Assembly: GCA_020831635.1 (NCBI GenBank)
Contig: JAFIGC010000005.1
Span: 1-64,000, forward strand
Reading direction: 5' to 3'
Length of the DNA: 64,000 nucleotides
Origin: Verrucomicrobiota bacterium
GTDB lineage: Bacteria > Verrucomicrobiota > Kiritimatiellia > SS1-B-03-39 > UBA6053
Shown: in pieces, positions 21,737 to 44,834 of the stretch
Numbering within the stretch: position 1 is the stretch's first letter
Layout: each line of letters opens with the position of its first letter
Translations under genes and position numbers: made by a program
Notes under the pieces: generated by a model
Seen by the model: the letters and a program-made list of their open reading frames with translations, nothing else
The model's database searches: none
What the model was told of the DNA's origin: nothing

Positions 21737-21777
21737 GGCCGCCTTGCGAGCGCAGCGAGCCTTTGGAGTGCGTCAAC

Positions 21778-21909
21778 AAAGGCGCTTCGCGCGGCTCAGC
21801 CACCGTGAAAGCGGCAGCTAAAGCGACCGCACTCCAAAGGCGCTTCGCGCGGCTCAGCCACCGTGAAAGCGGCAGCTGAAGCGACCGCACTCCGAAGGCG
21901 CTTCGCGCG
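21778..21909. repeat. 58-base tandem repeat, 2.3 copies
   Basis: A 58-base unit starting AAAGGCGCTTCGCGCGGCTC and ending CGACCGCACTCC lies at 21778-21835 and 21836-21893 with one difference, then a 16-base partial copy. An inverted piece, CCTTTGGAGTGCG, lies at 21759-21771. Related sequence recurs at 44533-44672. The element sits between the fucosidase stop and the PEP-CTERM promoter. Confidence 0.85.
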
Positions 21910-21918
21910 TTCAGCCGG

Positions 21919-34654: not shown

Positions 34655-35017
34655 ATGAAAACCCGCAAAACCTCTTGTCTGATGTTGATCCTGGCTTCCT
34701 GTGCATGGCTCACCGTTAAAGCCGAAGAAGCCGCCGAACCTTCTCCACCGTACCCAAATGCCGCCACTCGAAACCGTCTGTCCGAAGATCTCCGTTCCTT
34801 GTATGCAGAGCTGGAGTTGCTCCAGCAATATTTGCGGGAACCCCGGAAGGAACACAATGAACAGATCATGATCCGTGATCTGGAAAAACGTCATCAAGAA
34901 ATCATTTCCATGGATCTCAGTAAATGGCATGAACTTCAGGCCCTCCAATTTGCGGAAAAACTTCAAAAAGAAATCCCCGAGCCAACGCGGTACGAGCCCG
35001 ATGCCGTGACGGAGTAA
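34655..35017 (+). CDS. Small secreted protein of unknown function
   Basis: 120 residues, with a signal peptide (MKTRKTSCLMLILASCAWLTVKA) and GGAAAGAAGG 5-14 bases upstream of the ATG. The mature part is charged and probably helical (LRSLYAELELLQQYLREP, EEHNEQIMIRDLEKRHQEI-like), ending RYEPDAVTE. No family recognised. It is divergent from the Wzm gene, so it may share control with the export locus. Followed immediately by intergenic repeats. Confidence 0.65.
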   Translation: MKTRKTSCLMLILASCAWLTVKAEEAAEPSPPYPNAATRNRLSEDLRSLYAELELLQQYLREPRKEHNEQIMIRDLEKRHQEIISMDLSKWHELQALQFAEKLQKEIPEPTRYEPDAVTE

Positions 35018-35034
35018 AAGCCGATCCGAATCCG

Positions 35035-35075
35035 CACTCGTCACTCGACACTCCGCACTCGTCACTCCGAACTCA
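35035..35075. repeat. Heptamer tandem repeat CACTCGN
   Basis: Six consecutive 7-base units close to CACTCGT/CACTCGA/CACTCCG begin 18 bases after the small secreted protein gene. It opens a 1188-base gap (35018-36205) without a gene that I can support. Confidence 0.7.
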
Positions 35076-35281
35076 ATTGGGGTTCGAGCTTCGCAGTTGG
35101 ACGGCCTGCCCGCCGAAGCTCGGAGAGCGTGGGAGGGTCCGACGTTCTCATGGACGGACAGGAATGTCCGTTCTCCGTTTCCGCCTTTCCCGCCTCCGGC
35201 ACTGAGGCAGATCTATGATTCGCACTGCTGAAGCTTGCTATGCAAATCGTGTGGCAAGTCGTGTGGCAAATCGTGTGGAGT

Positions 35282-35324
35282 GCGGAAGCTTGCTTCCGCT
35301 TTGGGGCGGCAAAGCTTGCTTTGC
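35282..35324. repeat. Two adjacent perfect hairpins
   Basis: GCGGAAGC-TT-GCTTCCGC at 35282-35299 and GCAAAGC-TT-GCTTTGC at 35309-35324. Both have the same AAGCTTGCTT centre with different but self-complementary flanks. Confidence 0.7.
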
Positions 35325-43492: not shown

Positions 43493-43830
43493 GGCGTGGC
43501 CCCCTCGTCGTTTACGTTTCCTGGAGTGTCCTGTTTGCGCAGGAGCGAATCGGAATCGACGGTGGGAACGGGCCTTTCCCCTCTTCGCACCAGTTTCCAC
43601 ACTTCGTAAGCGCCATAAATCAACCCCACGGAGATCCCCAACAGCACGCCGAGGGGCGCGCGACCCGTTTTTTCGTCCCACAAATGACCCAACCAACCGA
43701 AAAGGCCCATGGCCACGGCAAAACTGCTGCCGAACAACACGCCCGGATGGGTGCGGTTGCCGTCCGGCGGGTCGCGGCGGGCGTTCAAAAGGGGTTTGGG
43801 GTCGGAAGAGTCCTTGGGCATGGGGTTCAT
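43489..43830 (-). CDS. AtpZ/AtpI-family F0F1 ATP synthase assembly protein
   Basis: 113 residues: a polar N-terminus, then two helices FGSSFAVAMGLFGWLGHLWD and APLGVLLGISVGLIYGAYEVWK. The G-x3-DxxxG-P-like hairpin with WDEKTGRAPLG is typical of the small AtpZ/AtpI proteins that head atp operons and help assemble the c ring. ATG at 43830. First gene of the contiguous atp run; the preceding 134 bases hold no other gene. Confidence 0.85.
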   Translation of the reverse strand: MNPMPKDSSDPKPLLNARRDPPDGNRTHPGVLFGSSFAVAMGLFGWLGHLWDEKTGRAPLGVLLGISVGLIYGAYEVWKLVRRGERPVPTVDSDSLLRKQDTPGNVNDEGATP

Positions 43831-43964
43831 GTATCGATTTCAACCCGATGGATCAAGACTGGAAACCCGTTCTTTCGCAGAAAGATGATGCAAAATCGTG
43901 TGTTTGTTGTTGTAACACTCGGAGGGGTGCCTGCGGTGGAATTGCCTTTGCTTCCTTTGGGTAA

Positions 43965-44357
43965 TCAAGGGGGTTCGTGCCCACAATACATGCACTTTTT
44001 TCGGTCCCGTTGCAAGATGCGGGCACATTTGGCGCATTTCCTTAATCGCAATTGTTTCCCCGATCCTTGTTGTCCGGATTTTGCGGGGACTTCTTTCGTC
44101 GCCTCTTCGGTCAAATCGGAAAGTTTCCGCTTGAGATCCTCTTCGGAGCACAGGCCTTTTTCCAGCATCAGTTCCTTCAACGCGCGAAGCACCACCGCCG
44201 TTTCCCCCAGCTCTTCCTCGAGTTCTGAAACACGCAACAACAACTTGCGCCGTTCCACGCTGGCACTCGTCTGCAACTTGGTTTGTTTCGAGCGCAAGTC
44301 CTCGATGTCGACCCGCTGTAAGAAATCATTGTCAAAAACATATTTCCATATGCTCAT
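43965..44357 (-). CDS. Coiled-coil protein with C-terminal zinc ribbon
   Basis: 130 residues. Residues about 15-85 are charged and helical with heptad character (ERRKLLLRVSELEEELGETA). The C-terminus has C-x2-C-x11-C-x2-C (CAKC ... CMYC), a likely zinc ribbon. No family recognised. Located upstream of the atp genes on the same strand with a 134-base gap, so it may or may not share their promoter. Confidence 0.7.
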   Translation of the reverse strand: MSIWKYVFDNDFLQRVDIEDLRSKQTKLQTSASVERRKLLLRVSELEEELGETAVVLRALKELMLEKGLCSEEDLKRKLSDLTEEATKEVPAKSGQQGSGKQLRLRKCAKCARILQRDRKKCMYCGHEPP

Positions 44358-44455
44358 GGGTCTTTTTTTGGCTTTTCAGCCAAAATGTCAATGAAAAATT
44401 GTACCCCGCCGATGCGCAGATCTACAATCCCGTCCCCATTGCCCCGCCCCTTCAA

Positions 44456-44481
44456 CGTTCGGAGTTGGACGTTCGATGTTC
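44456..44481. repeat. GTTGGACGTTC-type repeat, copy 2
   Basis: CGTTCGGAGTTGGACGTTC followed by GATGTTC; differs from the copy at 35685-35710 at two positions. It lies in the 477-base gap 44358-44834, which holds only repeats and no supportable gene. Confidence 0.75.
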
Positions 44482-44532
44482 GGCGTTCGCTTTCCCCCAA
44501 GCGGCAGCTCTGGTCGTTCCTCCCGACGCTAC

Positions 44533-44672
44533 CGCACTCCAAAGACGCTTCGCGTCCGCGCGTGGAGAGCTGTGGAGGCATGTTGGTTAAGCGCGGATCA
44601 GGATGAAGCGGTCATTCGACAAAGTGCCCCCAACGCAGATAAGGCGGGGACGCGAAGCGTCTTTGGAGTGCG
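44533..44672. mobile_element. MITE-like element with perfect 25-base inverted ends
   Basis: The 25 bases at 44533-44557 (beginning CGCACTCCAAAGACGCTTCG) are exactly complementary to 44648-44672, with a 90-base interior. CGCTAC outside the left end pairs with GTAGCG outside the right end after one extra T. The arms share GCACTCCAAAG-CGCTTCGCG with the tandem repeat at 21778-21909. No transposase frame fits inside. A miniature inverted-repeat element is the best reading; a strong cruciform or RNA hairpin is the alternative. Confidence 0.65.
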
Positions 44673-44761
44673 TGTAGCGAGCTTGCAAGCTGCCGCTTTC
44701 CAGAACCTACGACCTCTTCCGAGGAGGTGACATTGAAATCCCCGGGTCTTTCAGGCCGTAC

Positions 44762-44796
44762 TTTGTAGCATTTTTATGACCAAAACGCTACAAAGC
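44762..44796. repeat. 9-base-stem inverted repeat
   Basis: CTTTGTAGC at 44762-44770 and GCTACAAAG at 44788-44796, with a 17-base AT-rich loop. Preceded by CTTTCAGGCC, a piece also found in the element at 4741-4921. Confidence 0.6.
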
Positions 44797-44834
44797 ACAC
44801 ACCTTCTGCCGAGGTGTCCCTATCTCTTCACCCC

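Follow-up and report, generated by a model that had tools for sequence, protein, structure and literature searches.

A GGAG-tagged, paired REP-like hairpin element in a Verrucomicrobiota genome, very probably spread by a Y1 transposase of the RAYT kind

What is the repeat at positions 44533-44672 of this DNA, and what could have placed it there? The stretch that we analysed (the window, 64,000 nucleotides) belongs to a 6.0-Mb genome assembled in 308 contigs. From its letters alone, the locus had been described as a recent MITE-like element with perfect 25-base inverted ends, a 90-base interior and the outer arms CGCTAC and GTAGCG. The inverted ends are exact: 44533-44557 is fully complementary to 44648-44672, with 90 bases between them. 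CGCTAC directly adjoins the left arm, and GTAGCG is present at the right but is set off by one extra T. By chance, about 1e-8 perfect inverted repeats of 25 nt confined to 200 nt would arise per 64 kb (by arithmetic, with equal bases), and in an inverted-repeat alignment the pair reaches arms of 53 nt at 77%. The boundaries, in contrast, had been drawn too narrowly. Aligning other copies places the conserved unit, which is larger than the 25-base pair, at about 44498-44699, with the edges AAAGCGGCAGCT...AGCTGCCGCTTT. It contains a pair of REP-like hairpins that differ in type and lie in inverted orientation, each with a short GACGCGAAGCGTC-TTT hairpin before it:

44498 to 44540, minus strand: type B GGAG-tagged REP-like hairpin (GGAGTGCGGTAGC..loop..GCTGCCGCTT), the outer left end
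44541 to 44557, minus strand: short hairpin GACGCGAAGCGTC-TTT directly 5' of the type B REP, within the 25-nt arm
44558 to 44647, no strand assigned: 90-nt interior with partial self-complementarity and weaker conservation among copies
44648 to 44664, plus strand: short hairpin GACGCGAAGCGTC-TTT directly 5' of the type A REP
44665 to 44699, plus strand: type A GGAG-tagged REP-like hairpin (GGAGTGCGTGTAGCGAGCTTGCAAGCTGCCGCTTT), the outer right end

Both end hairpins start with GGAGT, have a GC-rich stem and end in CTT or CTTT. The left one, type B, reads along the minus strand and the right one, type A, along the plus strand, which turns both tags inward. The 25-base arm is made up of the REP start (GGAGTGCG) and the short GACGCGAAGCGTC-TTT hairpin that precedes it. 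The unit can fold into one long hairpin of -69 kcal/mol as DNA, compared with -38.3 (sd 3.1) for shuffled sequences, none of which reached -69 in 200 trials. Two inverted REPs are thereby joined in one hairpin, as in a REPIN or BIME. The element sits between two leftward called genes, the left of which is only at the threshold of our home-made caller. We conclude, with considerable confidence, that the element is a doublet of the REPIN/BIME type, one of a family in which REP-like hairpins come in pairs, are non-autonomous and depend for their spread on a RAYT transposase of the Y1 (HUH-tyrosine) class. The whole is, in our reading, a REP/REPIN-RAYT system in a variant form with GGAG as its tag.

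The original prediction proposed a search for full-length copies, and these exist. When 40 of 203 candidates were scored, at least 14 near-full-length doublets spanned 180 or more of the 221 query bases, the window copy included. Across the whole genome there were 160 arm matches (two mismatches at most) and 218 strict REP matches, a few of them nested; the reversed-pattern control gave 0 in both searches. REP arms stand at or near many contig ends, for example at C8:1, C39:1 and C106:1 of this genome (G000). The family probably breaks the assembly, which would make the copy number a lower bound.

We typed the REPs in a non-random 863-kb sample made up of the window and 40 stretches of long contigs. 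It held 54 typed REPs (34 of subfamily 2, 16 of subfamily 1, three of subfamily 4 and one of subfamily 3; reversed control 0), none of which lay inside an ORF among the 545 genes called by the home-made caller. The repeats are thus both abundant and intergenic, as REPs are. CTTT stood ahead of the tag in 51 of the 54, mostly as the tail of the short hairpin, so that units abut as ...CTTT-GGAG..., and most were preceded by GACGCGAAGCGTC-TTT or its variant GCGGCGAAGCCGC-TTT. Pairs with tags facing outward numbered 12 in the sample; 11 were spaced 42-50 nt apart and nine were subfamily 2 pairs. The two subfamily 1 doublets had inward tags 124 and 126 nt apart, and three inward-facing subfamily 2 pairs were also present. 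REPIN and BIME spacers are described as short and highly diverse; in doublets of the window's type, the spacer between the paired REPs is about 125 nt and partly conserved.

The window holds two further REP sites:

21777 to 21916, minus strand: 58-bp tandem array of 2.4 copies, sister subfamily (GGAGTGCGGTCGCTTYAGCTGCCGCTTT), with REPs at 21808-21835 and 21866-21893
35277 to 35302, plus strand: single REP of subfamily 3 (GGAGTGCGGAAGCTTGCTTCCGCTTT), the subfamily that also flanks RAYT3 on contig C84

The array had been taken for the arm sequence of the same element, repeated in tandem from 21778. The array is real, but only the CGCACTCCAAAG-CGCTTCGCG core is shared, and its hairpin belongs to a different subfamily, subfamily 4, the one that flanks a RAYT fragment on contig C279. 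The accompanying idea of head-to-tail amplification fared better, as such copies do occur; the tandem arrays even take in host DNA (for example C8:24782-25426). Runs of the heptamer GGARTGC lie beside REPs in the window (35017-35074), at locus L151 (2241-2339) and at locus L159 (1394-2230), and look as if the tag and the first stem bases had multiplied independently.

The perfect ends had also been read as a sign of recent insertion, and this we do not uphold. Among nine full copies, the median pairwise identity over the whole element was 83% (range 74-95%), and in the eight copies with both arms read the left and right arms differed at 1-3 of 26 bases. The arms are nearly identical because they are the conserved part of the family, which is not a sign of youth. 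No clean empty site for the window copy was found in the congeners G002, G003 and G004, where synteny is broken from 43765 to 44809: alignment of the left flank with G003 stops at 43765, and that of the right flank with G004 starts only at 44809. For the copy on C206, the orthologous G003 spacer is without the element, but the junction is unaligned. Other repeats lie close to the element in the window. To the left of the element, at 44404-44499, is a repeat of the GTTCGATGTTCGGCGTTCG kind, with partial copies in three congeners. Immediately to the right of the element, GTACTTTGTAGCATTTT / AAAACGCTACAAAGCAC form an inverted repeat of their own at 44758-44798. A second intergenic repeat (TTGAAAYCCCCGG...CAGGCGACGCTACGCGGCGCA...TTGAAATCCACGG) occurs at 44732-44757 and at loci L060, L061, L068 and L130; it stands 3' of some element copies, and at L130 no element lies within the 70 bases before it.

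A transposase with matching ends, the other partner to be looked for, lies on C8. This gene, RAYT1, is a 185-residue ORF (C8:180-734) at a contig end. It begins 126 bp past a type A REP on the plus strand, and a type B REP on the minus strand, tagged GGAC rather than GGAG, begins 36 bp past its stop. RAYT1 scores 86.7 bits against the NCBIfam model NF047646 (REP-associated tyrosine transposase), above the curated cut-off of 80, and matches the solved E. coli TnpA-REP 4er8 by sequence (E 1.5e-6). With Pfam Y1_Tnp it reaches 20.2 bits, below the cut-off of 23, and it is unlisted in the genome search with that model. Three relatives occur in the same genome: RAYT2 on C306 (67% identity to RAYT1) among subfamily 2 REPs, RAYT3 on C84 (57% identity, with a TAG in frame close to its end) among subfamily 3 REPs, and the RAYT fragment on C279 (60% identity) among subfamily 4 REPs. 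From this arrangement, each of subfamilies 1-4 appears to have its own RAYT or RAYT fragment.

Two other RAYT types were seen in this genome. L016 (G000:C154:17764-20988), which carries W-Q...R, lies among nine GGAG-tagged hairpins with the stem CACGGAC (locus positions 898-2600). That stem occurs 0 times in the 863-kb sample, and the L016-type hairpins seem confined to the surroundings of the gene. L021 (G000:C255:7281-10562) is a third RAYT and stands among GTAG-tagged hairpins (GTAGATCGGCAGTCYCTTGCCGAT; locus positions 1065, 1839 and 1879), the start of which has ten copies in the 863-kb sample (reversed control 0).

The association extends across the phylum. In a survey of 288 genomes, the strict REP pattern occurred 1309 times compared with 167 for the reversed control, or 1091 against 167 when the window's genome was left out. 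Genes of the RAYT1 clade, taken at E <= 1e-28 (a cut set after a gap was seen, and with clade fragments in G222 and G007 excluded), were present in 32 of the 288. Three or more REPs were found in 27 of these 32 genomes and in 33 of the 256 others (Fisher p 1.4e-16). The remaining five clade-gene genomes had fewer than three strict REPs, and two of them had none. Conversely, twelve genomes had at least ten REPs and no clade gene at the E cut, one of which (G222) has the clade fragments.

We examined 34 clade loci; L173 falls outside the clade set, and several matches, such as those in G168, G227, G234, G242, G220, G075 and G106, were left out. A REP lay within 300 bp in 58 of the 68 flanks, by a pattern that allows GGAG, GGCG or GGAC as the tag. 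The ten flanks without one by this pattern include those of L246, which has REPs with the tail CTCT. At a distance of 1000-1300 bp, REPs were found in three of at most 68 flanks. Related RAYTs across the phylum are bracketed by REPs of like tag and TTT tail but with other stems, so that these genes are flanked by REPs of their own, as RAYTs are. They also have the HUH and tyrosine motifs of the family: 33 of the 34 have HYH and one has HFH, and the catalytic Tyr is present in 33. In the remaining one, the RAYT1 relative L162 (G010:C21:10902-14426), the catalytic Tyr is replaced by Glu and no convincing REP was found alongside the gene; decay or a change of role is possible.

As a contrast set we took 30 of 48 listed non-clade Y1 matches, drawn from ten of twelve genomes with such REPs but no clade gene (nine of the twelve genomes with at least ten REPs but no clade gene, and three from exact-arm records). 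Only one stem-checked REP lay within 300 bp of these 30 loci, a weak hairpin beside an IS200-like gene (L304). Exact arms also occur in records of Victivallis, another Lentisphaeria MAG, Kiritimatiellota, Verrucomicrobia and Acidobacteria (29 stretches). A trace of the clade was found in one of nine exact-arm genomes, as fragments in Verrucomicrobium sp. BvORR034; Victivallis vadensis has arms and no Y1 match at all. Gene loss, assembly gaps or another enzyme could possibly account for the several genomes with REPs and no RAYT1-clade gene.

The stems vary among genomes yet stay paired (90.4% of cells), so a palindrome is kept directly downstream of the tag, as in REPs. The 43 sequences analysed had been selected on tag and outer pairs, so the inner pairs alone count; in them, double changes preserved the inner stem in 69 cells compared with 18 in shuffles, and none of 500 shuffles reached this value. 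Two further, weaker measures are unremarkable: pairs showing a double change (6 compared with 4.9; 102 of 500 shuffles) and further pair types (17 compared with 14.2; 37 of 500 shuffles).

Three other explanations were weighed against a RAYT-borne doublet. That the element is a classical MITE, derived from a DDE insertion sequence and thus having terminal inverted repeats, DDE cutting and target-site duplication, is very improbable. It shares with such MITEs its small size, non-autonomous nature, inverted ends and many copies, and the earlier description was right in taking it for a small non-coding repeat. In other respects it differs. The target-site duplications that the label led one to look for are absent from all nine full copies, where the longest boundary match is 3 nt (in two of the nine) and the mean is 0.67 nt, compared with 0.84 nt for mismatched flanks. 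Its ends are tagged hairpins that are also found singly and flanking RAYT genes, and its probable partner is a Y1 and not a DDE enzyme. Less credible still is the suggestion that ordinary IS200/IS605-type ends (PATE) are moved by the IS200-like Y1 transposases of the genome; we regard it as the least likely of the three. The Pfam model does find 21 Y1_Tnp matches in this genome, but in a stem-checked scan only two of these loci (L010 and L020) had REPs, of subfamily 2 and more than 300 bp away, and the IS200-like L013 carries unrelated hairpins of its own. These 21 genes were dropped as REP partners.

The remaining alternative, that a host-maintained RNA or DNA signal (for transcription end, mRNA stability, or a gyrase or nucleoid site) has been copied by recombination with the RAYTs incidental, is slightly less remote and still improbable. 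The strong fold fits such a signal, as do the genomes with REPs but no RAYT and the excess at convergent genes: 28 of the 50 REPs placeable between two genes in the 863-kb sample lie at convergent junctions, which make up 100 of 504 junctions overall. However, a simple terminator scan called no terminator inside 44498-44699, and there was no Rfam match within that interval (a single sub-threshold match beside the element was taken as chance). Moreover, a RAYT link is needed to explain why subfamilies in one genome pair with particular RAYTs, and why REPs and RAYT flanks go together across the phylum. A host role could coexist with mobility.

For the doublet spread by a RAYT, we propose the following model. 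By analogy, the hairpin family is probably mobile; movement, binding and cleavage are modelled on the TnpA-REP proteins of E. coli, Stenotrophomonas and Marinomonas, as described in PMC8266576. RAYT1 would bind a single-stranded hairpin with a 5' tag, as E. coli and other TnpA-REP proteins suggest. It may then cut at CT near the hairpin edges, where units abut, and transfer the strands. The doublet would in this way be copied to new, mostly intergenic, sites without target duplication, and recombination or repeated transfer could add the head-to-tail arrays.

The tag sets this system apart. REPs are defined by GTAG or GTGG (PMC3686654 and PMC6006769), and the 5' tetranucleotide here, mostly GGAG, does not fit the GT[A/G]G definition of PMC3686654. 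Of 223 hairpin calls near the 34 clade RAYTs, with the tag scored within 6 nt 5' of the stem and overlapping variants counted separately, 41 had GGAG, 10 GGCG, 6 GGAC, 6 GTAG, 3 GTGG and 157 none; a tagged perfect stem of at least 7 bp was near in only 16 of the 34 loci and far in one. PMC3733652 names the degenerate tags GYAG, GYRG, GTRG and GTMG, and GGAG is not among these. As a word start, GGAG is absent from the main text of PMC6006769, PMC8266576 and PMC3733652; among the occurrences listed for PMC2817692 and PMC3686654, it stands inside tabulated REP strings such as GTGGGAG. A search of open-access text for GGAG-tagged REPs with a transposase returned only a frameshifting paper, and among the matches listed for GGAGTGCGG none was about REPs. 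An earlier description elsewhere is possible.

How might the tag be read? PMC6006769 discusses W94, Q95, E100, H101 and R104 as GTAG-contacting residues of the E. coli protein. In one MAFFT alignment, on which these counts rest, Q95 is kept in two of the 34 clade members and H101 and R104 in none (T or S replaces R104 in 33); all 34 are also one residue shorter between W94 and W99. It is possible that the changed RAYT residues read GGAG, although counter-examples exist. A simple rule by which reader residues decide the tag is favoured by L289 and L300 (G290), which have W-Q...H...R and stand by GTAG hairpins, and likewise by L021. The rule is weakened by L016, which has W-Q...R yet GGAG hairpins, and by TnpA-Y1 subclass 2.8, which shares W[YH] and for which GT[AG]G REPs are reported. 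L167 and L168, two RAYT-like genes from a further group, likewise have GGAG hairpins on their flanks. From these cases (L016, L167/L168 and subclass 2.8), GGAG is broader than the RAYT1 clade, and residues alone do not fix the tag. We hold only tentatively, and rather doubt, that this is a tag-switched branch of REP-RAYT systems, with GGAG for GTAG in several RAYT groups and with protein and DNA tag changed together in the RAYT1 clade; subclass 2.8 in particular lowered our estimate of such a joint change.

Among known systems, the closest are the REP/REPIN/BIME elements and RAYTs of E. coli, Pseudomonas and Stenotrophomonas. Like them, the present system has tagged hairpins, inverted doublets, singles and tandem arrays in intergenic DNA, RAYTs flanked by inverted cognate REPs, and separate RAYT/REP pairs within a genome. 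Unlike them, it carries the tag GGAG (in some cases GGAC or GGCG) where they have GT[A/G]G, usually leaves a single T unpaired where the tag meets the stem, and has TTT or similar on its 3' side. The window doublet also differs in joining two REP types, in the spacing of about 125 nt between its inward-facing tags and in its extra short hairpins; REP dimers that face inward are already known as such (PMC3733652). That paper also describes the GTAG-tagged repeats of Opitutus terrae, which are similar in forming dimers and grouped elements in a REP-rich verrucomicrobial genome but have GTAG or GTGG as the tag. For the protein, the nearest row in Table 1 of PMC6006769, likened by motifs, is subclass 2.8 (NHYH, W[YH], Y-x-x-x-N-P, about 199 aa), which according to that paper has close relatives in other phyla. 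There, the REPs are GT[AG]G, the survey having asked for GTAG or GTGG, and the tyrosine motif is YIHYNP, whereas it is mostly YVxxN[PA] here.

In sum, REP-RAYT systems are extended to a tag beyond the published definition, across much of a phylum. Such systems can escape both the Pfam Y1_Tnp model and REP searches based on GTAG. The window's genome offers a natural experiment on tag reading: from a single clade it carries three RAYTs and one RAYT fragment, each accompanied by a REP stem of its own, and besides these it has a GTAG pair and another GGAG pair.
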